Below are positions 1,425-15,250 of a stretch of 34,348 nucleotides of DNA, in pieces. The stretch comes from a virus. The DNA lies in the IMG/VR virus record IMGVR_UViG_3300005607_000033, positions 1 to 34,348 of that record; one strand, written 5' to 3'. The position numbers were made by a program, and so were the translations under genes. Below the pieces are notes generated by a model. The model ran no database searches. It worked only from the letters and a program-made list of their open reading frames with translations, and was not told where the DNA came from. How positions within the stretch are numbered: position 1 is the stretch's first letter; each line of letters begins with the position of its first letter.

Positions 1425-3662
1425 GTGACTGACGAGATCCGCGTTGGGGGCGAGGGCCCGGTCCCGGCCGAGGCCGCGGTAGTCGGGCAAAGCCCAGGCC
1501 GCGTCGAGGCGATCCACCGCCGCCCCTTCGTGGGGCCGAGCGGCCAGCTCCTGGACGAGGCGCTCGCGGCGTGCGGGCTCGACCGCCGAGCGCTCTACGT
1601 GACGAACGCGGTCTCGGTCTACCTGCCCGGAAATCCGCCTCCGGAGCGCGACCTCATCGCGGCCGAGCGGCCTCGGCTCATCGAAGAACTGCACAAGGTC
1701 CATCCCCGCGTCGTGCTGGCGCTCGGCGACGTGGCGCTCCGGGTTCTCACAGGGATGGGGAGGATCACCGACCGCCGCGGCCAGGAGCTGCCGATCCACC
1801 GAGACTACGGGCTCGACGCCGTGGTCGTGCCGACCTATCACCCGGCCGCCGTGCTCAGGGACATGCGGCTTCGGCCCCGCTTTGTGGAAGACGTGGCCGC
1901 GTTCGCGCGGGCGCTCCGGCGCGGCTACACCGAGATCCCGATCTCCTACGAGATCAACCCTCCGTTCGCCGCTCGGTCCGTGCTGTACGTGGACGTGGAG
2001 ACGCGCGCGGGCGAGCTCTGCCTGATCGGTCTCAAACCCCCGGGCGAGCCGTGCGCTCTTTACACGCCCGAGGGGTTCGACATCGCGGTGCAGAGGCTCC
2101 GGGAGGCGCTCGTCCTCTTTGCGTGGAACGCGCAGTTCGATCTCCTGGAGCTGCGGCGTCATTTCGGCGACCGTCTGCGCGACATGACGTGGCCCGTGGG
2201 CGATCCCATGTTCATGGTCTACTTGCTCGATGAGGAGGGGCGGCAGGACCTCAAGTCCGTCGTCATGCAGCGTCTCGGGGTCGCGCCCTGGGAGCGCGGG
2301 ATCCGACAGAAGCTCATGCGGGGGGAGATCGAGCAGGGGCCGGAGCTGTGGGAGTACAACGCGCGCGACCTGACATACATGGAGGCCGTGCACCGCCTTC
2401 TGGAGGCCGAGCTCCAAGATCTCCCGGCCTGGCGTGTGTACGAGCAGGTGCTGTGCCCGGCCACGTGGCTGTGCCTCCACATGCGGGAACGCGGTCTCTA
2501 CGTGTCGCTGGAGGCCATCGCCGAGGCGCGGCTCCAGCTCGGCGCCGCGCGCGAGGAGGCGCGGGCTCGGATCCGGCGCCACCTCGGGGATGTCAATCCG
2601 CACTCGCCCAAGCAGCTCGCATACGCGCTCTACACGCGGCTCGGGCTTCCGGCGGCGGACTGGACGGCGCACGGGTTCCCGTCGACGGCCGAGCTCGCGC
2701 TGCGGCGGATCCAGGACCACCACCCGGTCATACAGGACATCCTCGCTTTCCGCGAGGCCGAGAAGCTCCTGGAGTTCGTCGAGGCTTATCAGGACCTTCG
2801 CGACGAGGCGGGCCGGATCCATCCGAACACGACGCTGACATTCACGGTGACCGGACGCACAAGCGCGCGCGAGCCCAACATCCAGCAGATCCCGCGGGAT
2901 CCCCGTGTGCGCCGGATTATCGCGGCGCCCCCGGGGAAGCTCCTGGTGTCTGCCGACTACAGCCAGCTGGAGCTCCGGGTCTGCGCGTTCGTCTCTCGCG
3001 AGCCAGTCATGCTCGACGCCTACCGTCGGGGGCTGGACCTGCACACGCTCATGGCTTCGCGCATTACGGGGAAGCCCGAAAGCGAGGTCACAGCCGAGGA
3101 TCGATACCGCGCGAAGCCTGTGAACTTCGGGTTCTTATACTGCGCCGAGCCCGAGACATATCGCGAGCAGCTCCTGAAGCAATGGGGTCTCTCGATCTCA
3201 GCGGAGGACGCGCAGGCGGCGTATGACATGTTTCACTCGACCTACGCGGGCATTCTGCCGTGGTACGAGCGCGTGTACGCGCAGCTCCGGAAGGACGGCT
3301 ACGTCGAGACGGTATTCGGGAGACGCCGACGGCTTCCCAACATCATGAGCGAGAAGACCGACATGCGGCTCCAGGCTCTCCGCCAGGGCGTGAACTTCCT
3401 CGTGCAGTCGACGGCGAGCGACCTCATGCTCATCGCCGCGACGCGCATGGACGAGTGCAGTCTTCCTGTCTGTGCGTACATTCACGACGCCGTCCTCCTG
3501 GAGGTCGAGGCCGACCGTGCGCAGGAGGTCGCGGAGGCCGTGCGCCGCATCATGGAGGACGAGGTTGTGGAGTTCGTGTGGGATCAGTTTGGCGTGGAAT
3601 GGGACGTGCCGCTCGTGGCCGAGATCGAGATTTCGCGGGCCTGGGGCGAGAAAGGAGCTTGA
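1425..3662 (+). CDS. Family A DNA polymerase with N-terminal uracil-DNA-glycosylase-like domain and 3'-5' exonuclease
   Basis: A 745-residue replicative polymerase starting at GTG 1425. Residues about 8-165 have the family 4/5 UDG fold pattern: VGQSPG at 20-25, RPFVG, a TNAV strand, and HPAAVLR with H139. The Fe-S cysteines of family 4 UDG are not visible. Residues about 185-330 form the proofreading domain: Exo I D190-x-E192, Exo II D239 in WNAQFD, Exo III Y311-x3-D315. The polymerase domain has motif A DYSQLELR (D511), motif B with R560, K564, F568 and Y572, and motif C as HDA (H687, D688) instead of the usual HDE. Phe at 568 is the residue associated with discrimination against dideoxynucleotides in Pol I. 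There is no 5'-3' flap nuclease domain. A UDG-like domain fused to Pol A is known from some phages (SPO1-type). The -35 of a candidate promoter overlaps the stop codon. Confidence 0.93.
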   Translation: MTDEIRVGGEGPVPAEAAVVGQSPGRVEAIHRRPFVGPSGQLLDEALAACGLDRRALYVTNAVSVYLPGNPPPERDLIAAERPRLIEELHKVHPRVVLALGDVALRVLTGMGRITDRRGQELPIHRDYGLDAVVVPTYHPAAVLRDMRLRPRFVEDVAAFARALRRGYTEIPISYEINPPFAARSVLYVDVETRAGELCLIGLKPPGEPCALYTPEGFDIAVQRLREALVLFAWNAQFDLLELRRHFGDRLRDMTWPVGDPMFMVYLLDEEGRQDLKSVVMQRLGVAPWERGIRQKLMRGEIEQGPELWEYNARDLTYMEAVHRLLEAELQDLPAWRVYEQVLCPATWLCLHMRERGLYVSLEAIAEARLQLGAAREEARARIRRHLGDVNPHSPKQLAYALYTRLGLPAADWTAHGFPSTAELALRRIQDHHPVIQDILAFREAEKLLEFVEAYQDLRDEAGRIHPNTTLTFTVTGRTSAREPNIQQIPRDPRVRRIIAAPPGKLLVSADYSQLELRVCAFVSREPVMLDAYRRGLDLHTLMASRITGKPESEVTAEDRYRAKPVNFGFLYCAEPETYREQLLKQWGLSISAEDAQAAYDMFHSTYAGILPWYERVYAQLRKDGYVETVFGRRRRLPNIMSEKTDMRLQALRQGVNFLVQSTASDLMLIAATRMDECSLPVCAYIHDAVLLEVEADRAQEVAEAVRRIMEDEVVEFVWDQFGVEWDVPLVAEIEISRAWGEKGA

Positions 3663-3687: not shown

Positions 3688-3712
3688 GGTGCGGAGAGGA
3701 GGCGAAACGGGA

Positions 3713-4726
3713 ATGGGAGAGCTGAGAGAGATCCGGATGCACGAGCTGGCCACGTTCCGTCGGTGCCCGAAGAAGTACGAGTATGCGTTCGTACGCAATT
3801 GGGAGCCGCTGGTCCCGCCCGAGGTCGTGCGGATCGGCGACTACGTTCACCAGTTCCTTGCGCACGCAGTCGCGTCAGACGCGCGCCCTCAGCCTGTCCC
3901 CCGAAGGGAGGACGAGGACGCCTTCGCGATGGCGGAGGACATCGTGACGCGCTATGTGCAGCACGTAGGTCTCCCTCCAGCGGGCGACGTGATTGCGGTC
4001 GAGGAGGACTACTCTCGGGAGATCTCAGAGCTTGGCGTGACGGTCGCGTTCAAGCCCGACCTCGTGTACTGGGACGAGGCGAGGACACGGTTCGTGATTC
4101 GGGACTACAAGACGGTCGATCAGATTCCACGGGAGCGGACGGAGGACGAGCTCGATCTCCAGCCGCTCGTGTACCTCTGGGGGATGAGGCCCTATCTCAA
4201 TTTGATGGCTATGCTGATCGGGCGGCGACCGGGGACCTGCTCGATTCTCTGGGAGTACGAGTTCCTGCGGCGCGCAGTCCCGCGCGATCCCGACGTGACG
4301 CGCGACGGCCGGGTCTCCCGCGCGCGCATTACGACGACCCGAGAGCGCTACGAGGCGGCGGTTCGGAGGGCCGGAGCGGACCCGGCCGAGTACGCGGACA
4401 TCCTCGATTCCCTGCCTCGCGAGGCGGACTACTTCGGCCGCGAGCGCATCCTGCTGACGCCGGAGGAGCTCGACCGCGCGGAGTCCGAGATCCTGGACTC
4501 TCTGCGGCTCCTGCTCCTGGCCGACCGCCATGACCTGTTTCCGAGGAACCCGATCAAGACGGGCGGGGAGCGGTGCGCGGGGTGTCCGTACTTCCAGCTG
4601 TGCAAGGCGGAGCTTCTGTTAGGACGCGAAGAGAACGAGCAGGCAATTCGCGCGATGGGATACAAGAAGAGAGGAGTCGATGAGGAGGAGGTGACAGCGG
4701 ATGAAGCTGCGAGTGCGTTTGACTAA
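3713..4726 (+). CDS. Cas4/RecB-like PD-(D/E)XK nuclease with Fe-S cluster motif
   Basis: A 337-residue nuclease of the PDDEXK_1/Cas4-AddB type. The N-terminus carries FRRCPKKY with C18. The core has H46 (after RIGDY), D116 in AFKPD and the D131-Y-K133 catalytic motif. The C-terminus has C288-x2-C291-x5-C297. One N-terminal and three C-terminal cysteines are the pattern that holds a 4Fe-4S cluster in Cas4 and AddB. Such enzymes degrade or trim DNA ends with single strands as substrate; in phages they accompany recombination genes. The start is set by GGAGAGGAGGCG upstream of ATG 3713; the reading frame is open further upstream but that part is only antiregister of the polymerase. The gene overlaps the next one by 26 bp. 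There are no cas1/cas2 genes here, so a CRISPR adaptation role is not indicated. Confidence 0.85.
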   Translation: MGELREIRMHELATFRRCPKKYEYAFVRNWEPLVPPEVVRIGDYVHQFLAHAVASDARPQPVPRREDEDAFAMAEDIVTRYVQHVGLPPAGDVIAVEEDYSREISELGVTVAFKPDLVYWDEARTRFVIRDYKTVDQIPRERTEDELDLQPLVYLWGMRPYLNLMAMLIGRRPGTCSILWEYEFLRRAVPRDPDVTRDGRVSRARITTTRERYEAAVRRAGADPAEYADILDSLPREADYFGRERILLTPEELDRAESEILDSLRLLLLADRHDLFPRNPIKTGGERCAGCPYFQLCKAELLLGREENEQAIRAMGYKKRGVDEEEVTADEAASAFD

Positions 4727-4901
4727 CGGAGAGGATGTGCATGGGGACGAGCTCCGGCCGGACGAGAGCGGGCAGTACCGCGTGCTGTACCGGAACGACG
4801 TGGGAGTCGTCCGCATCCTGCGGCCGGACGAGATTGCGTACGTGGCGCCGATCCCGCACTCGACCCCGGACTCGCCGCACCCGGTGAGAGGAGGCGAGTG
4901 A
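4701..4901 (+). CDS. Small conserved-looking protein of unknown function (66 aa)
   Basis: A 66-residue acidic protein that starts inside the end of the nuclease gene with GAGGAGGAGG just upstream. The sequence alternates short beta-prone stretches (KLRVRLT, YRVLYRN, VGVVRIL, EIAYVAP), which suggests a small beta-barrel or SH3-like fold, and ends in a Pro/Ser tail. I do not recognise a family. Position between a nuclease and a recombination ATPase, with overlaps on both sides, suggests it is co-translated with them and may be an accessory factor. The strong ribosome site and tight packing are the main reasons to accept it as real. Confidence 0.6.
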   Translation: MKLRVRLTNGEDVHGDELRPDESGQYRVLYRNDVGVVRILRPDEIAYVAPIPHSTPDSPHPVRGGE

Positions 4902-4903
4902 CC

Positions 4904-5746
4904 ATGGCGAAGGGGAACGGGACCGAGAAGATCCTGCTCATCGACACGGAGCGGGGGGCGGGCGGATTCAAGTCGCTCGCGCACGTGACGATCCTCGACG
5001 CCTCGCCGGACACCAAGCAGACAGCCGCCGAGAAGGTCGAGGCTGTCCTGTGGGCGCTCCTCGACCATCCCGAGAAGCTGCAGGGCTATTCGCTTCTCGT
5101 CTTAGACACGATCTCGTCTCTCTCGACCCTCGTTCGCCACGATCTGATGGGCGACGGAAAGCTCGGCATCTGGCAGAACCGGGGCGTGTATAGGGCCGAT
5201 ACGCGGTCGGAGTACCGCGCCACGGCCGACATGGTGAGCCGGATGCTCCAGCATTTCCGGAGGCTCCCCATCGCGACCGTGTTCGTCGCGCACGAGGAGG
5301 AGCGGCTCGACCCCGCGGGCGTCTTGAAGCGCGGCCCGGCGCTGAGCCCCGCTCTGCTCAAGGATGTGGTAGGCTGGAGCCACGTTCTCGCCCACCTCGG
5401 GCAGACGACGCACGCCGTGACGCTCCCGAATGGACGCGAGATCCCGGCCGGGACGAGGCGGCTCAGAGTGGAGCCGGACAACCGCTACATGGCGAAGGCC
5501 AGGAGGAGAGTCGACCTGCCGCCGCTCCCGCCCGTCATCCTGGAGCCGACGCTTCGGGACCTGCGGGAGATTTTAGACGGCACGGGCGAGCCCTACCCGT
5601 GGGCGACCCTGTACGGCCCGCCGGGGGTCGGGAAGACCAGCCTCGTCGTGGGCGCAACCTATGCGCGGCGCTCCGCCGAGGCCGAGGAGGCAGTCGCGAA
5701 GCAGGAAGTGACGGACCGCGTGCGCGGGGAAAGAGGTGAGACGTAG
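4904..5746 (+). CDS. RecA-like (Sak4/AAA_24-type) ATPase with circularly permuted P-loop
   Basis: A 280-residue P-loop ATPase whose motifs occur in permuted order. The protein opens with KILLIDTERG (DTE at 14-16), which in Sak4/AAA_24 proteins is the second strand, after the P-loop. Walker B LLVLD with D68 follows, then the sensor-type strand TVFVAH (H130), then NRYMAKARR and a proline-rich stretch typical of the normal C-terminal part. Only after that comes Walker A, GPPGVGKT at 238-245, with the helix SLVVGATYARR and a charged tail. No other Walker A exists at the N-terminus and no second Walker B follows the C-terminal P-loop. The simplest reading is a circular permutation that keeps the fold. 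ATG 4904 is preferred over GTG 4898 because GAGAGGAGG lies nine bases before it. The gene lies among SSB-like and nuclease genes, so a role in single-strand annealing or recombination is likely. Family: confident; permutation: seen directly; activity: inferred. Confidence 0.85.
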   Translation: MAKGNGTEKILLIDTERGAGGFKSLAHVTILDASPDTKQTAAEKVEAVLWALLDHPEKLQGYSLLVLDTISSLSTLVRHDLMGDGKLGIWQNRGVYRADTRSEYRATADMVSRMLQHFRRLPIATVFVAHEEERLDPAGVLKRGPALSPALLKDVVGWSHVLAHLGQTTHAVTLPNGREIPAGTRRLRVEPDNRYMAKARRRVDLPPLPPVILEPTLRDLREILDGTGEPYPWATLYGPPGVGKTSLVVGATYARRSAEAEEAVAKQEVTDRVRGERGET

Positions 5747-5988
5747 TGGCGCAGTACAGCGTGGAGCGGAGCTACGACGTGGCGGGCGCCTGGGACGTGT
5801 TCGACGTGAGCGGAGGTGGTCGCAACAGGGTCGCCACGTTCTACAGCCCCGACGCGAGGGCGAGAGCGGAAGAGTACGTTGCAATGGTGCCTCACGTCGA
5901 AACATGGAAAGCAGCTCTCGGGAAGCTAGAGAGCGATGTACAGGACATCGAAAAGATCCTCGGAGAGGAGGAAGGGAAGAATGGCTAA
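5746..5988 (+). CDS. Small protein of unknown function between ATPase and SSB-like gene (80 aa)
   Basis: An 80-residue protein starting with GTG that overlaps the ATPase stop codon by one base (TAGTG), a translational-coupling arrangement. The first half looks beta-rich (YSVERSYDVAG, WDVFDVSGGG, RVATFYS), the second half is helical and charged (ARAEEYVAMV, ETWKAALGKLESDVQDIEKILGE). I do not recognise a family. The overlap at both ends (it runs 8 bp into the SSB-like gene) argues that it belongs to the recombination cluster. A partner or loader of the ATPase is a guess from position only. Confidence 0.6.
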   Translation: MAQYSVERSYDVAGAWDVFDVSGGGRNRVATFYSPDARARAEEYVAMVPHVETWKAALGKLESDVQDIEKILGEEEGKNG

Positions 5989-6406
5989 GCTCAAGGACAT
6001 TGTCGGAGGATCGCGGTTGCCGGACGGGGAGTACCTCGTCACCATCGTGAGCGTGACCGACGATGTAAGCCAGACCGGCCACGCCAAACTCACATTCAAG
6101 GCGGCCACGCAGGACGGCTCGACGGTCATCTGGTCGAGGTCCCTGCAGCCGCAGGCTTTGTGGAAGCTCGGTCGCGACCTGCTGGCGGCCGGGGTCGTCG
6201 ATGAGGACACGGAGATCTCGGACGATCCGGATCAGCGGGCGGTCGAGCTCGCCGACCTCGCGCACCAGCTCCAGCACGAGCAGGTGCGGATCTCGGTCAC
6301 GACCACGACGAACAAGGTCACGGGCCAGAGCGGGTCGGAGGTCTCCATCATCGGGCCCGCCGCGGTGAGAGCACAGAGCAGGGCCGATGCGCTCGCAAAT
6401 CTCTAA
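5981..6406 (+). CDS. DUF669/SSB-like single-strand DNA-binding protein
   Basis: A 141-residue protein starting MAKLKDIV with PDGEYLVTIVSV, the pattern of DUF669 proteins, which sit next to Sak4/AAA_24 ATPases in many phages and have an OB-fold-like SSB character. Alternating strands (AKLTFKAAT, STVIWSRSL, EQVRISVTTT, SEVSIIG) fit that fold. No acidic C-terminal tip of the classic SSB type is present; the protein ends ADALANL. The start at 5981 follows GGAGAGGAGGAAGGG; the frame is open upstream but the ribosome site decides. Its place directly downstream of the ATPase supports a shared job in covering and annealing single strands. Without a search the SSB function is an informed inference. 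Confidence 0.7.
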   Translation: MAKLKDIVGGSRLPDGEYLVTIVSVTDDVSQTGHAKLTFKAATQDGSTVIWSRSLQPQALWKLGRDLLAAGVVDEDTEISDDPDQRAVELADLAHQLQHEQVRISVTTTTNKVTGQSGSEVSIIGPAAVRAQSRADALANL

Positions 6407-6773
6407 GGGACCGACAGAGAGGTCCATTGTCGAGCGCCTCAAGCGCCGCTTGAGGGAGACGGGCAAGGTCGTCAAATTGCATGGGGGGCCCTACCAAGAG
6501 GCGGGGCTCCCCGACCTCCTCTACATTGAGAAGGGGTGCGCATACTGCATTGAGGTGAAGACGCACAGCGCGTTCAATCGTGAGAAGCACGGTCTCTCAG
6601 AGCTCCAGCACAAGCAACTCACGGGCTTCGCGCAGGCCGGAGCGGTCTGTACAGTGACGGATGGAGAAAGGTGGGTGCTTATCAATGAGAACGGCGAGTT
6701 TCGCGATCTGTCTCTTGACAACGATGATAATGCTGGTCCCGGTGCCGGGGGAGCCGAGCCCGCAGATCAGTGA
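6387..6773 (+). CDS. VRR-NUC domain nuclease
   Basis: A 128-residue PD-(D/E)XK enzyme of the VRR-NUC family. The active-site pattern is G40-L-P-D43, then E56-V-K58, followed by the family's LSELQHKQL and FAQAGAV segments. Standalone phage VRR-NUC proteins are thought to act as Holliday-junction or branch nucleases and are often found with SNF2 helicases, as here. It overlaps the SSB-like gene by 20 bp. The last about 30 residues lie beyond the folded core, are low in complexity (GPGAGGAEPADQ at the end), and overprint the start and signal peptide of the next gene in another frame. Confidence 0.82.
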   Translation: MRSQISKGPTERSIVERLKRRLRETGKVVKLHGGPYQEAGLPDLLYIEKGCAYCIEVKTHSAFNREKHGLSELQHKQLTGFAQAGAVCTVTDGERWVLINENGEFRDLSLDNDDNAGPGAGGAEPADQ

Positions 6774-7614
6774 TCCAGCGGTTGGACAGCTGGAGGTGCA
6801 TTTTAATCCGCTCCTCCAGCCGTTCCTCAAGTTCTTCGGGTTGCCTGAGTGGCTTCCGATCTGCACCGCCACACAGATCGAGGACCGCATCGTCGTGACG
6901 GCCTCGCACTGCATCCCCGACGATTCCTTCTACCTGTTCTCCGGCGGAGGCGCGGGGCCAGATGTCCAGGCGATCCACGTTGTGCGGCGGTCGAGCCTCT
7001 ATGCGGACTCGCTGGCCGCGTATCTCCGGCGCCTGCCCTCCGGCGCAACGCCCCTCCAGTACTGGTCTGGCCCGTACCCCGTGATCGATGGATTCCGCGT
7101 GGGATTTTACAGGGGCACGCTCGGACACGTCTACTACAGGGATGCGGACGTGTTGTTCAGCGGATTTAGGCTGACAGACGATTCCGACTATTCGCTTCCC
7201 GACCGCGTCGTGCCGACATCGCCGTCCGACCCGCTCTACCAGGTCGATATCGCCGTGCTCACGCTCCGCGATCCCTGGCCCGCGGTGCACCCCGTGCAGT
7301 TCGGCCCGATCCCCCGAAAGGGCGAGCAGGAGTGCTCGACAGGCTTCTCCGTTGGGCTCCGGCAGTGGTCCGGCTGCGCGACCGTGACCGTGCCGCTCAC
7401 GTACCTCGACGGCTACGGGTGGGTGACAGCCCTGGGCTCGGATGTCATGGCGTGGGCGCCGGGCGCAAGCGGGTCGCTCGTCACCAACCCTCTGACCCGG
7501 AAGACCATCGGCATTCTGACGCTGGGAGCTCCGCCCGGGTTCCTCCACAATTTTGTGGGGGTCGTCCCGAGTGGCCTGCTGCGGCTCGCGCTGGAGCGGG
7601 CCGGGGTGCGCTGA
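6685..7614 (+). CDS. Secreted chymotrypsin-like serine protease
   Basis: A 309-residue S1-type (trypsin/chymotrypsin fold) protease. The catalytic triad is visible: H75 in VVTASHC, D188 in VDIAVLTL and S262 in APGASGSLV. C60 and C76 bracket the histidine like the conserved Cys42-Cys58 disulfide of the family, and a second Cys pair lies in ECSTGF/SGCATV. The first 20 residues (FAICLLTTMIMLV after a basic start) are a typical signal peptide, so the enzyme should act outside the cytoplasm. ATG 6685 is chosen over ATG 6661 because it gives a clean signal peptide and AGAAAGGTGG lies about 11 bases upstream. The gene overlaps the VRR-NUC gene by 89 bp and its stop overlaps the next start. A secreted protease is odd in a phage replication arm; it might change the host surface or rival phages, or be acquired cargo. 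Substrate unknown. Confidence 0.82.
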   Translation: MRTASFAICLLTTMIMLVPVPGEPSPQISDPAVGQLEVHFNPLLQPFLKFFGLPEWLPICTATQIEDRIVVTASHCIPDDSFYLFSGGGAGPDVQAIHVVRRSSLYADSLAAYLRRLPSGATPLQYWSGPYPVIDGFRVGFYRGTLGHVYYRDADVLFSGFRLTDDSDYSLPDRVVPTSPSDPLYQVDIAVLTLRDPWPAVHPVQFGPIPRKGEQECSTGFSVGLRQWSGCATVTVPLTYLDGYGWVTALGSDVMAWAPGASGSLVTNPLTRKTIGILTLGAPPGFLHNFVGVVPSGLLRLALERAGVR

Positions 7615-9401: not shown

Positions 9402-12400
9402 TCACCTCCCTCCGAGCGAGGGGGGCTTCGGCCCCTTCGGGAGACCGGGGAGGCCGAGGCCCCCGGAGACCTGTCCTTCTGTCGCATAGAACGGTGTGAG
9501 ACCGAACAGATAGAGCCACAGCTGGTCGCGCGGAATCTGCAGACCCGCCTTGAGATTGAAAATGTTTACGATTGGGGTGGGAAGGATATCGCTTCCGACG
9601 AGCTTGGCAAGATCTTCAAAGTCGACTGGCTTGTGCCCTGGTCCCAAAAGAGTTATTGCATCAGCAAGCATTCGCACGGGAACGCCTGATTTCGACTTGG
9701 CCTCCCAGACAACGGGGCGGAAATCGGGCTTCGCCTGCGGATCTCCTGCTCTCTTCAGATATTCCTGGTAGGCATATTCTGCCAGGTGATATCCGAGAAT
9801 CTCGGCGTCTGTCGTGTACTCCTTGATGCGGAAGTACTCGCCCTTTCTCTTCCTCTTGTCGATCTTTTCTCCGATTCTGATGTCGAACTTGTGGTATCCG
9901 GGATTATTCGCGGCCCAGGTTCCTGTGACGGCATACTGGATAGAGTTCGTCCACAGAAATTGCAGGACCATAGCACGAAAATTGATGGCATTGGCGACCT
10001 TCATCATTACGAGGCGTTCTTCGGGAGAGACCGCCGCAGGCAGGTATCGCCCCCCTACGAGTTTTCCTCCGATGCGGGTTCCTGATTGCGCCAGCGAGGC
10101 GTATTCTCCGAACGTGTAATGTATAGCAAAGAGAAGGGTGTTGCCGTATTTCTGGAGCCACAGCGGGAGCATCGAGCGCGGAATGCTCCCAAACCGAGTG
10201 GCCACGAGGGCGGCGGCCACGCGCCCCGCGCGTTCTTCAGGAAGACGGACGCGCACGCCGTTCTCATAGACATCCTTCTCCATGAGGAGTGCCTTCAGGC
10301 GCTTGTACGCGAATCCTTGGAGAGCGGGAGCGAGACGCTGGAAGAGCAGATCTTCGGCGACCCGGTAGACGGCCTTGCCGACCGGAAGAATGATTGTCGA
10401 CGTGGCGAGAGCGCGCACCCACGGATATCTCTCTGCGAGCCGATTGAAGAGTTCTCCCGAGAATGTCGAGAACTCACGGTGGAGAACGTCGACATCGAGG
10501 CCGTTCTGCTTCATCTCGGCATAGATGGGATCGAGGCGCCGAAACTCCTCATACGCACGAATGACGTCCGGCCACTTCCACGGCAGAAGGATATCGGGGG
10601 CGATGGAGGCAGCCGCTCCGATCAGGGTGCGGCCGTGGAAGATCGGGTTCCAGCCTATGATGAGCTTGCGGAGATCCGACGGAATCCCCCAAAGAGGGCG
10701 CCCTCCTGAGGGACCGACATAGCGGTCGAGGACCTCAACGAGCGGCTTCGGCGCATACATCGTGTAGGGCCGGAGCTCGCTGACAGAGAGGACCTGCTCG
10801 TATCCAGGAAGCTTGACAGGAGAGAGCAGACCAAGGTTCTCGAAGACGTTCAGGATGGAGTGCGTGGCGGTTGCGTCGGCTGAGTGCGTGATTCGGCGCG
10901 TGATGATGTCGAGGGGGTCGTAGACGGGCTTCAGCCCAATCCTCTCAGCAAGAGCATGGTTCAGCTTCTGCGGCTTCACGTGGTGGAATTTCGTAATGAG
11001 ACCCCGGCGCTCCTCGCTGATCTTTGTTCCCACTTCAAGATAGGACCCTGATTCTCCGAAGAGGTCCTTTGAGAGCTCGTTCTCGAATCCGTCGGCGAGG
11101 GACGCGGCTTCCTCAGCCGTCTTCCCCGCCGCCTCGGCAACCTTCATGAAGGCCGCTTTCGGTGTGTGGTTGGGCAGGAGGCCGCGGTACGTTTGCAGGA
11201 AATCTCCAACATTCTCGATGCCTGCTGTTTTCGCGAGATAGCCGGGAAGGAGAGCATCTCCGCGCTCAATCCACAACTTCGCGAGCGCAGTGGGGATCTC
11301 CTCGGGGTTCTTGAAGAAGAGCGCGAGGTACCGGTCCCGCTTGGGATAGACGTATCCCACTGCCTTCTCCGCCTTATAGAGGGCATCGAGGACGGCTGTC
11401 ACATAGGACGCCATGCGTTTGACCCCTTCGGGGGCGTTTGGATCTGGAGTCAAGACCTGGCGGCCGACCCGCTCCCAATCTGCTTTTGTAACGACACCGA
11501 CTCGCCGACCTTCGTCGACGAGGAATCTCCTGATCTTCTCGATGTAAAACTGAACAGTGGATACGTAAGACTCTGCGCCTTTGACGGCCTCTAGCCCTTT
11601 GACACCCTCTTCAGTGAGCCCCCCCTCGCGCAAAACCTGCGCATCTTTTGAAATGAGATAGCCGGGAAAATTCACGCGCGTTAGGGCGCTTACAAGAGGC
11701 TGAAGGATCGGCCGAATCGCACGGAGTTCGGGAGGAACGTTGACAATGTATCGATAGGGAGAGATCTTTGTCAGCGCATCGGCGACTTGCTCCTTTACCT
11801 CATTCGGGCCCTGTGGGGGGCGGTTCGCTTCGGTCGGACCCCGGCTCGTGTAGACGGAGTCGGTATACGTCACTCCCGACTGAGGGTCGATGGCGGGGCT
11901 TCGCCCGCGCACGGCTCCGACCGATTCGGCCATCTCGCGCTTGGCGGTCGCCTCGGCCGCCTTCTCCGCGTAGGTCGCCTTCCCCGTGCGAGGCGAAATG
12001 AGGCGCTGGAGATCGCGTGGGAGCTCTCCCACGCGGGGAGACGGCCCCGGAGGGTCGAGACGCCAGTGCGGCTCGGGCAAAGGCGCAGGGTGCAGGGTAA
12101 CAGTAGGTTGCGGTGGGAGCCCCGGAGACAGCGTTCCGGGAGACTGCACGACCCTGATCTGGGTCTTGCCGCCCGCGTGCTCGGCGACTCGCCATGTTCC
12201 GGCGGGCGTTTCTCCGAGAGGTTCCGCCAGCGGAGAGCGGACGATCTGCGGAGCGGGAACGCGCACCTCGGGGCGGAGCGGGGTCGCTCCGACCGGGGCT
12301 CCGGGGCGCGTGGCAGGAGGTGTCGGCGTCAGGACCTTCTGCGCGACGGCGGAGGTCGCCGCCCGCGCGGCCGCGTGCGCCGCCTCTCCCTGCGCTCCGG

Positions 12401-13745
12401 TCGGAGGGTGCGCGGCGGGGGTCGATGCCGCTTCTCTCTCCAGATCCGCTATAGCGCGGGCGCGAGCGAGATTGCCCTTGAGCACGAAGAACCCCTTGAG
12501 CCCCGGCAACAGGAGAAGCGTGTTTGTTACGGTCAGCTGAGGATCGCGCTTGAACTCTTCGAACCACCAGGCCCAGACATTCTCCGGGATCTTCTCGGCC
12601 AGCAGGAGCGTGGCCTTCGCGGGAGGGATGTTGTGCGCCCTTGCCCACGCATAGTAGTCTTCGATGTACTGGCGCGCCGCCTGAACGGTTGGAAAGGCGT
12701 CCTTCTCGTAGGCTTTCGCCGCGGCCACGTGGCCCGCGACGACCTGTTCAGCCTTTTGGCGGTCTCCGATGAGCGTATAGTACACGCCCTGAACGATCCC
12801 CGCGACATCGTTCGCGATCCCTCCGAGAATCGCCACCGCATCGTGGTGAATGGCGGCGATGGGCTGGAGAGCTCCCGCGACGAACTGGCCTCCGACGATC
12901 AGGGGCTGCCGCACGACGGGGGTCACGCCGGGGAATGTCAGGGCCCGAGCGAACTTGTTCCACAGGCGGTCGACGGCTTCAACGTAATTGTGCGTCTCGG
13001 TTGGGAGCGCGGCCCCCTTGTCGATGTTCGCAATGACCCGGGAGTACCCGCCATTGTAGGCCGCGAGCGCCATCTTCCATGCCGTTCGGTCGTCCATCGC
13101 GGGGTAGCGCGTCGTCAGATCATCGTGCAGCCTCCGCAGATAGAGCGCTCCGTACAGGAGCTGGAGACCTGGCTTGGAGGCAACCTGCTGGGGATCGACA
13201 CCGAGCCCTCTCACGGTCTCCGGCATGAGCTGGGTCAGCCCGAACGCTCCCGCCTTCGAGACGGCCTTCGGATTCCACCCCGACTCCTGAGTGACGAGTC
13301 CCAAGAACAGAGGCACCGGGATCCCGAACGCTTGCGCCGTCTTCACAGCTTGTGCGTACCAGGGCGAACGCGGAATGCCGGGCGGAGGCTCCGGCGCGGT
13401 CGGTGTCGGAGCAGGCGCCGACGGCGCTGTGAGCCGGACCCCGCCGGGCGGGAGCTGCTCGCGGGTTGGGATCTCGCGCACATCGGCGCCGGCGCCGGTC
13501 GGGGGGATCGCGCGCGTGCCTGCGTCATCCTCGCTCTTCTGAAGAGGAGGCGGTGCGCCTCTTACAGAGATGATAGGCGAGGGCGTGCCTGCGTCATCCT
13601 CGCTCTTCTGAAGAGGAGGCGGTGCGCCTCTTACAGAGATGATAGGCGAGGGCGTGCTAGGCGCATCTCGCACGGATCCAATCAGCGGGGACTGCGACGG
13701 AATCTCGCTCGGCGCGCCTCTGACAGCGATGATGGGATCAGCCAT
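9402..13745 (-). CDS. Giant internal virion protein with lytic transglycosylase domain (1447 aa)
   Basis: The largest gene of the window. Residues 1-95 form a Pro-rich, repetitive leader with several copies of a [P/S]-I-x-x-VRGAP motif. Residues about 115-265 form an SLT/goose-type lysozyme domain: catalytic E154 in TQESGWNP, then AFGLTQLMPETV and AAYNGGY. A hydrophobic region follows near residue 410 (NTLLLLPGLKGFFVL), then an Ala/Pro-rich linker with VAQKVLTPTPP, and a long helical C-terminal half with aromatic-rich stretches. Size, domain order and place near the end of the structural operon resemble T7 gp16-type ejection proteins, which enter the cell envelope at infection and open peptidoglycan locally. 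ATG 13745 overlaps the stop of the upstream gene (TGATG). The codons for the C-terminal third look less GC-rich than the flanks. Lytic domain: confident; ejection role: inference. Confidence 0.8.
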   Translation of the reverse strand: MADPIIAVRGAPSEIPSQSPLIGSVRDAPSTPSPIISVRGAPPPLQKSEDDAGTPSPIISVRGAPPPLQKSEDDAGTRAIPPTGAGADVREIPTREQLPPGGVRLTAPSAPAPTPTAPEPPPGIPRSPWYAQAVKTAQAFGIPVPLFLGLVTQESGWNPKAVSKAGAFGLTQLMPETVRGLGVDPQQVASKPGLQLLYGALYLRRLHDDLTTRYPAMDDRTAWKMALAAYNGGYSRVIANIDKGAALPTETHNYVEAVDRLWNKFARALTFPGVTPVVRQPLIVGGQFVAGALQPIAAIHHDAVAILGGIANDVAGIVQGVYYTLIGDRQKAEQVVAGHVAAAKAYEKDAFPTVQAARQYIEDYYAWARAHNIPPAKATLLLAEKIPENVWAWWFEEFKRDPQLTVTNTLLLLPGLKGFFVLKGNLARARAIADLEREAASTPAAHPPTGAQGEAAHAAARAATSAVAQKVLTPTPPATRPGAPVGATPLRPEVRVPAPQIVRSPLAEPLGETPAGTWRVAEHAGGKTQIRVVQSPGTLSPGLPPQPTVTLHPAPLPEPHWRLDPPGPSPRVGELPRDLQRLISPRTGKATYAEKAAEATAKREMAESVGAVRGRSPAIDPQSGVTYTDSVYTSRGPTEANRPPQGPNEVKEQVADALTKISPYRYIVNVPPELRAIRPILQPLVSALTRVNFPGYLISKDAQVLREGGLTEEGVKGLEAVKGAESYVSTVQFYIEKIRRFLVDEGRRVGVVTKADWERVGRQVLTPDPNAPEGVKRMASYVTAVLDALYKAEKAVGYVYPKRDRYLALFFKNPEEIPTALAKLWIERGDALLPGYLAKTAGIENVGDFLQTYRGLLPNHTPKAAFMKVAEAAGKTAEEAASLADGFENELSKDLFGESGSYLEVGTKISEERRGLITKFHHVKPQKLNHALAERIGLKPVYDPLDIITRRITHSADATATHSILNVFENLGLLSPVKLPGYEQVLSVSELRPYTMYAPKPLVEVLDRYVGPSGGRPLWGIPSDLRKLIIGWNPIFHGRTLIGAAASIAPDILLPWKWPDVIRAYEEFRRLDPIYAEMKQNGLDVDVLHREFSTFSGELFNRLAERYPWVRALATSTIILPVGKAVYRVAEDLLFQRLAPALQGFAYKRLKALLMEKDVYENGVRVRLPEERAGRVAAALVATRFGSIPRSMLPLWLQKYGNTLLFAIHYTFGEYASLAQSGTRIGGKLVGGRYLPAAVSPEERLVMMKVANAINFRAMVLQFLWTNSIQYAVTGTWAANNPGYHKFDIRIGEKIDKRKRKGEYFRIKEYTTDAEILGYHLAEYAYQEYLKRAGDPQAKPDFRPVVWEAKSKSGVPVRMLADAITLLGPGHKPVDFEDLAKLVGSDILPTPIVNIFNLKAGLQIPRDQLWLYLFGLTPFYATEGQVSGGLGLPGLPKGPKPPSLGGR
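13514..13651 (-). repeat. Two identical 69-bp tandem repeats in the giant virion protein
   Basis: Two adjacent 69-bp units (13514-13582 and 13583-13651) encode a 23-residue repeat containing PIISVRGAP and LQKSEDDAG. The unit length keeps the frame. Degenerate copies of the VRGAP core lie further toward the N-terminus (IIAVRGAP, LIGSVRDAP). Perfect identity suggests recent duplication and possible length variation. Confidence 0.9.
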
Positions 13746-15250
13746 CACTTCACCTGCGCCCACCACGTTGTGCCATCAGACAGCCAGTCGCGTCCATCTC
13801 GGGTCGTTGCGATTTGATTCGGAAATCGAGACGCCGGAGGCATTCCCGGAGGGGGCGCGACACCAGCCCGCCATTTGCTTCCGTCCGCAAGAGTCTTAAT
13901 CCCGCCTCCTGCTCCTCCTGATTGCGGTGCGGGCTGTGCAGGGGGACTCTGCGATGGCGTGGGCTGAGCCGGTGCCTGAGACGCTCCTGCTCCTGTGGAG
14001 CTCGGTGTCTGCTGCGATGTCTGCTGTGACAGAGCGTCATCAATGATCTGGAGATACTGCCGCTGAAGAGCTTTGAGCTGGTCGATCCCGCTCTGCGCCT
14101 CGCTGATCCTCTGGTCGATCTCGTCGAGCATCTCCTTTCCCTCGTCGCGCCCGATCTGCTTCGTCGCGATGGCCGACTTGACGATCAGGCGCTGACGTTG
14201 CAGATTCACGATCTCGCGCTGAGCGTTCGTAATGTTCGTTGTCAGGTTTGTGACGAGCGCTTTCGCGGCGTTCAGGTTTGCGACTGTCGGCTTCTGGAGG
14301 AGAGCATCTGCGCGCTTGAGATTCGCCTCCGAGTTCTGCAGGGCTGCGAACGCCTTCTTGTGGGAATCCTCGATGCCTGCGAGAATCGCCTGCGCACGGG
14401 CCGACGCAACCTGCGTCTGCGCCTTCGTGAGATCGACCTTTGCCTCCGTCAAAGTCTTCAGTGCGCCGAGGTAGTCCCCGTGCGCGAGAAGGTCCTGCGC
14501 GCGCGCCAGAGCTTCCTTCGAGCGGGCGGCCTCCATGTCCGTGCGGCCCTTGAGCTCGTCGATTCGCGCCTGCACGAGCTGGGAGATCTCGGTGACGGCG
14601 GCCTTCGCCTCTTCGGGAATCTCAAACCCATAACGCTTCGCGACGGTTTCGAGAGCCGCAAGCGCCCCAAGCTTCTGCATGGGTCCGGCATTGGGATTGT
14701 ACAGGGCCTGCGTGACTTGTGCGCTGAGCTTGAGCGCTGCATCCGGCGAGATGTACGGCGGCGCGTTCAGGAATGCGTTCGGCAGGTCGATTCCTGTCTC
14801 CTCTTTCAGCGTCTGCGCATACGCCCTGCGAGCGTCGGGCGGCATCGCGAGGAGGTCCGGGAGCTTGTCGAGGATCGTTGCGCGCTCTTTCGGGCCATAT
14901 GCCAGTGTGGCGACGGTCCGCGGCGTGATCCCTCCTGGGGGAATGGGGATGTTCAGCCCCTTGAACAGGTCCGAGAGCTTCGCTTGGACTGTCGGGTCCT
15001 GCAGGAGGGCCGGGTTCCCCTGGAGGAGCGGGAGCATCGTCTGGAGAGTCTCCTGCAGCTGCTTCTGCTGCTCGGTCTGGAGCTGGATCTCCCGGAGCTT
15101 CTGCTCCGTGATCAGCCTCTCGTACTCCGGCTTCTGGAGCTGCCCCTGCGTGTAGCCCGACACCGCCGACTGCAGGAGCTGGCCCAGGAGGTCCGGCGCG
15201 AATCCCTGCGGCGGAACGGGCGGAAGCGGTCCAATCTGAGGAATCGGCAT
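13745..15250 (-). CDS. Coiled-coil internal virion protein candidate (501 aa)
   Basis: A 501-residue, strongly helical protein. The N-terminus is Pro-rich (IPQIGPLPPVPPQG), followed by Gln/Glu-rich coiled coil (residues about 45-75, with EQKLREIQLQTEQQKQLQE), a central part with GGITPRTVATLAYGP, and long coiled coils from about 215 to 400 (LKGRTDMEAARSKEALARA, NAQREIVNLQRQRLIV). Then a Gln/Ser/Pro linker and a compact C-terminal WLSDGTTWWAQVK. No family is recognised. Its place directly before the transglycosylase protein, and overlapping its start, suggests a second ejection/internal core protein. There is no signal peptide or membrane span. Confidence 0.65.
   Translation of the reverse strand: MPIPQIGPLPPVPPQGFAPDLLGQLLQSAVSGYTQGQLQKPEYERLITEQKLREIQLQTEQQKQLQETLQTMLPLLQGNPALLQDPTVQAKLSDLFKGLNIPIPPGGITPRTVATLAYGPKERATILDKLPDLLAMPPDARRAYAQTLKEETGIDLPNAFLNAPPYISPDAALKLSAQVTQALYNPNAGPMQKLGALAALETVAKRYGFEIPEEAKAAVTEISQLVQARIDELKGRTDMEAARSKEALARAQDLLAHGDYLGALKTLTEAKVDLTKAQTQVASARAQAILAGIEDSHKKAFAALQNSEANLKRADALLQKPTVANLNAAKALVTNLTTNITNAQREIVNLQRQRLIVKSAIATKQIGRDEGKEMLDEIDQRISEAQSGIDQLKALQRQYLQIIDDALSQQTSQQTPSSTGAGASQAPAQPTPSQSPPAQPAPQSGGAGGGIKTLADGSKWRAGVAPPPGMPPASRFPNQIATTRDGRDWLSDGTTWWAQVK

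Follow-up and report, generated by a model that had tools for sequence, protein, structure and literature searches.

A contig of an uncultured virus (IMG/VR record IMGVR_UViG_3300005607_000033) encodes a protein of the Sak4 family whose P-loop lies behind the rest of the ATPase core instead of ahead of it. The window analyzed here is the whole 34,348 bp stretch of this record. We consider the best reading, with a probability of roughly 0.72 and from a single contig, to be a naturally circularly permuted Sak4 that would still bind ATP and anneal single-stranded DNA (ssDNA). The segment order, the family and the gene context are shown for this gene, as is the canonical order in its relatives.

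The permuted sak4 gene (4904..5746, plus strand) is an open frame without internal stop that encodes 280 amino acids and matches both AAA_24 and phrog_124. Residues 1-226 (4904..5581) comprise a Sak4 core that lacks a P-loop and runs from strand 2 to the C-terminal helix, based on the match to AAA_24 positions 23-194 and on comparison of the predicted model with 8rc5. The core proper spans residues 8-226 and a 54-residue C-terminal tail follows. Within the core are a DTE motif (residues 14-16; 4943..4951), the Walker B aspartate D68 (5105..5107), which is invariant in the family alignment and sits in the context LLVLDTI (residues 64-70), and the sensor-like motif VAH (residues 128-130; 5285..5293), assigned by motif reading and the family alignment. 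The tail (residues 227-280; 5582..5743) contains the relocated strand 1, P-loop and helix 1, recognized by a P-loop profile and by AAA_24 positions 6-19, and a hydrophilic end. Its Walker A motif is GPPGVGKT (residues 238-245; 5615..5638), with K244 encoded at 5633-5635. The family residues K198 and R200 are also present. The initial annotation of this DNA had listed the DTE, D68, VAH and GPPGVGKT motifs, and all of them were confirmed at their positions in the 280-residue translation. A second, N-terminal P-loop, which the annotation had named as one finding that would contradict a permutation, is encoded in no reading frame immediately before the start codon.

Profile searches reproduce this segment order. 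The native protein matched AAA_24 in Pfam (53.3 bits; cut-off of 27) and PHROG 124, a Sak4-like family (E-value = 1.7e-26), each in two stretches. In detail, the body alone aligned to AAA_24 positions 23-194 or 23-195 and the tail alone to positions 6-19, so the two do not overlap. A rotation of the sequence had been suggested in the initial annotation as a check, and it bore out the expectation of one AAA_24/Sak4 domain: with residues 225-257 moved ahead of residues 1-224, the protein formed a single continuous stretch in both AAA_24 and phrog_124. We also scored the two arrangements with a Sak4 profile of 80 canonical homologues from which the query was excluded. The native sequence obtained 102.3 bits, split over two domains of 90.3 and 10.0, and the rotated, linker-trimmed sequence reached up to 118.5 bits in a single domain. 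The untrimmed rotation gave no gain over the native score, because about 30 tail residues then become an insertion between the P-loop helix and strand 2. When searched with a Sak4 P-loop profile, the 54-residue tail scored 20.6 bits, compared with 7.8 for the best of 5000 shuffles, and a viral ORF is expected to contain about 0.012 Walker A motifs per 54 residues. In combination, these sequence checks support the annotation's description of the protein as a circularly permuted Sak4/AAA_24 ATPase.

The assignment to the Sak4 family is firm, based on the phrog_124 match, a structure match to 8rc5 and a profile match of the body to the 8rc5 chain (E-value = 2e-17). The entry 8rc5, the Sak4 of Staphylococcus aureus phage 52A, a Rad51-like phage annealase, is the best solved match of the body model (Z = 14.9 over 171 residues, rmsd of 2.5 Å), and the next is a Rad51 filament (Z = 11.1). 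Model residues 7-226 aligned to residues 48-257 of 8rc5; thus, the body corresponds to the Sak4 fold from strand 2 to its end, minus everything before residue 48 of that entry. Two AlphaFold runs predicted the body with fair confidence and left the P-loop unplaced, with pLDDT of about 40-45 for residues 228-257. In the first run, the alignment included basic tails overlaying the P-loop, and the second run, with a clean alignment, gave the same low P-loop confidence. This may be because the alignment rows for the P-loop and the body are unpaired and few. The models therefore neither support nor refute a position of K244 beside D68 in the predicted fold.

We searched for Sak4 homologues by tblastn in annotated phages, by the neighboring polymerase in viral contigs, by a P-loop pattern and by body-only patterns. 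As searches with a P-loop pattern could favor canonical genes, we also relied on the neighboring polymerase and on the body-only patterns, which are biased toward neither segment order. Among the matches listed, this sample comprised 256 ORFs, 192 of them different, that contain a Sak4 core, and the permuted order was found in none of them; nor did the searches of viral and genome contigs reveal a homologue with that order. An ordinary Walker A motif is located just upstream of the core in 254 of the 256 listed ORFs. One of the other two (L258:9935-10783) is a canonical Sak4 with the variant loop GRNGTEKT at the canonical site, in which glutamate replaces the glycine before the lysine. The other (L114) was initially a candidate for a Sak4 without a P-loop, and was rejected as a canonical gene broken by a frameshift that may stem from a sequencing error. 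The frameshifted gene is at positions 2742-3657 of L114, and the same locus encodes a family A polymerase (3-1715) that is apparently interrupted by an intein-like insert. Given that the 192 different homologues are canonical, we infer that the canonical order is ancestral and that of the window is derived. For the same reason, the window protein, whose P-loop (residues 238-245) follows the core where the family order has it first, was classed as a permuted Sak4 and not as an ordinary member. The query shares at most 26% identity with any other member of the family tree. No close relative was detected by exact-peptide search of viral and genome contigs, by tblastn against phages (at 1e-5) and plasmids or by a scan of genome contigs with a body alignment, and a strict DNA pattern of the P-loop plus flanks had no match in viral contigs.

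A sole permuted case against 192 different homologues among the matches listed, on a contig assembled from a metagenome, could also reflect an artefact, in which the true gene is canonical and its pieces, or those of two related genes, were joined in the wrong order. Several features of the locus make this unlikely. The single open frame has coding-like codon usage from end to end, in body and tail alike, which the other frames do not. An AGGAGG ribosome-binding site (4889..4894, plus strand), read in the sequence, lies 9 bases before the ATG. The neighboring genes abut the frame on both sides: a 66-residue ORF of no known family with coding-like codon usage (4701..4901, plus strand) ends 2 bases upstream of the start, and the start of an 80-residue ORF, for which family searches gave no known family (5746..5988, plus strand), overlaps the stop. 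The cut points coincide with secondary-structure borders, and no long repeat that could mislead an assembler occurs at the junctions. The codon usage, the ribosome-binding site and the abutting neighbors thus argue for a real gene as judged from the sequence; misassembly is possible, but so clean a gene would then be a matter of luck.

If the gene is real, the tail may still have had another source. A P-loop-less Sak4 could have replaced its lost loop through chance fusion with a P-loop fragment of a different ATPase, whether AAA_16-like or not. On its own, the tail scores higher against AAA_16 (21.1 bits, E-value = 5e-4, below the cut-off) than against AAA_24 (14.0 bits), although the best AAA_16 score of 26.6 bits is below the cut-off of 32.6 and covers only positions 6-51 of 167. 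The similarities of the query P-loop and the query body to those of other members are also uncorrelated (rho = 0.03; canonical median = 0.45). However, with close kin left out this value is at the 47th percentile, so a missing correlation is usual for isolated members. Moreover, the tail consists only of strand 1, P-loop and helix 1, the very part that the body lacks, and it resembles the P-loops of Sak4 more than other viral P-loops (Mann-Whitney p = 5e-25; maximum of 0.55 vs. 0.28, in a sample partly made up of loci fetched by P-loop pattern). The tail P-loop scored 21.8, compared with 16.5 for the top P-loop among the tested non-Sak4 ORFs, once three rows that scored above it had been recognized as Sak4-like ORFs or fragments that had escaped the first filter. 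We therefore regard a chance fusion as improbable, and if the tail restores the ATP site the resulting architecture is a permutation anyway. The simplest origin of the permuted order would be a tandem duplication within sak4, followed by loss of the start of the first copy and the end of the second, a step to which we give less weight. We looked for a duplication scar around sak4 and found none, nor a P-loop remnant upstream.

The gene is located in a replication module on the plus strand at the left end of the window, which comprises a helicase, a polymerase, an exonuclease, the permuted Sak4, a single-stranded DNA-binding protein (SSB) and a VRR-NUC-like nuclease. The family A DNA polymerase (1425..3662, plus strand) matched phage DNA polymerases by tblastn over 99% of its length, and its N-terminus (1425-1950) resembles, by eye, a uracil-DNA glycosylase domain to which the exonuclease and polymerase domains are fused. 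Between it and sak4 lies the gene of a PD-(D/E)XK-type exonuclease (3704..4726, plus strand; phrog_1218, E-value = 5.8e-23). Downstream are an SSB-like, DUF669-like protein (5981..6406, plus strand; phrog_378, single strand DNA binding protein, E-value = 4.3e-6) and a VRR-NUC-like endonuclease (6387..6773, plus strand; phrog_93, endonuclease, E-value = 6.4e-8). A trypsin-like protease gene (6724-7614) adjoins the module. The order polymerase-exonuclease-Sak4-SSB, with VRR-NUC behind it, is the standard phage arrangement. SSB is the usual partner of Sak4, and its gene lies close by here, as is expected of a member of this family. The start regions of sak4 (4886-4912) and the SSB gene (5963-5989) show 70% identity over the 27 bases that run from ribosome-binding site through MAK, which may be due to chance.

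The Sak4 of HK620 requires an acidic tail in its SSB partner. The SSB of the window ends in RAQSRADALANL and has no acidic tail. We considered this loss as a change matching the permutation and dropped the idea, as 29 of 124 distinct tails from relatives also lack an acidic tail. The minus-strand structural genes match T7-like portal (head-tail adaptor), internal virion protein and terminase families, and the virus is thus probably a podovirus, judging from these gene matches. Another minus-strand gene (9402-13766) encodes 1454 residues that include a lytic transglycosylase (SLT) domain; its product is probably a virion protein that is ejected.

As the gene neighborhood is unchanged and neither part of the ATP site has been lost, the simplest reading is that of the canonical site and function. 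In the permuted Sak4, strand 1, P-loop and helix 1, which formed the N-terminal unit of the ancestor, would now be attached to the end of the core by a few linker residues (about TGEPYPW); the loop that formerly joined helix 1 to strand 2 would have become the new N-terminus. The C-terminal strand would then re-insert in the middle of the RecA-like sheet, so that K244 meets D68 at the normal ATP site. With ATP bound, the protein would bind and anneal SSB-coated single strands produced by the neighboring exonuclease, in phage replication and recombination. In HK620, ssDNA binding and annealing by Sak4 are ATP-dependent and stimulated by its SSB (PMC5928155), and the phage 52A protein assembles into filaments (PMC11846896). 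Folding around the standard site, ATP binding and a working protein are accordingly what we would expect of the permuted Sak4.

A decayed Sak4 that is no longer an ATPase, whose core binds DNA without ATP while the tail P-loop is unused, is very unlikely. The branch of the query is indeed long, at 1.62 changes per column against a family median of 0.46, but those of several canonical relatives are equally long. Likewise, a Walker A mutant of phage PA73 Sak4 (K30A) retains some recombineering activity, whereas the HK620 protein needs ATP both to bind and to anneal ssDNA (PMC5928155). The catalytic and family residues are kept in both halves of the window protein and its codon usage is coding-like, which also argues against decay. 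For a working permutation, the initial annotation proposed that the P-loop and both termini could share one surface, which may change oligomer contacts or DNA loading. A more speculative variant, which we consider quite unlikely, is that the freed C-terminal P-loop unit completes the ATP site of the neighboring protomer in a strand-swapped filament. Assembly on ssDNA would then be linked to ATP binding in a manner unlike that of known canonical recombinases.

In RecA-like folds, strand 1 is an inner strand of the central sheet, with the P-loop helix packed on it, and for this reason the P-loop unit would be expected to be the last part to be movable. If the permuted Sak4 is as we describe, the recombinase core can be opened between helix 1 and strand 2, and evolution would have supplied a protein from which to test folding order in P-loop ATPases and to develop split annealases. 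As profile tools label the permuted protein a normal Sak4, further cases may have been overlooked.

The window protein shares the core sequence, the fold and the exonuclease and SSB neighborhood with Sak4/phrog_124 proteins (AAA_24; HK620 Sak4 and 8rc5 of phage 52A), but their P-loop unit is N-terminal and its C-terminal position here is without counterpart among the matches listed. Its core fold is also like that of Rad51, RadA and RecA (Z = 9-11), which have extra recombinase domains, whereas the window protein is small, lacks these domains and is permuted. A P-loop placed behind other motifs through circular permutation of the P-loop domain is known from GTPases, with the order G4-G5-G1-G2-G3 in the YRG group (YjeQ/YlqF type) and G3-G4-G5-G1-G2 in cpRAS (PMC2430557). 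However, the window protein is a RecA-type ATPase with a RecA/Rad51-like core, and no GTPase family occurs among its Pfam or PHROG matches. Searches of the open-licence literature turned up no permuted ATPase of the RecA or AAA type. The cut sites also differ: between strand 3 and helix 2 in YRG and between strands 2 and 3 in cpRAS, but between helix 1 and strand 2 in the window protein. The permuted P-loop domains known from the literature examined are GTPases cut elsewhere (PMC2430557).
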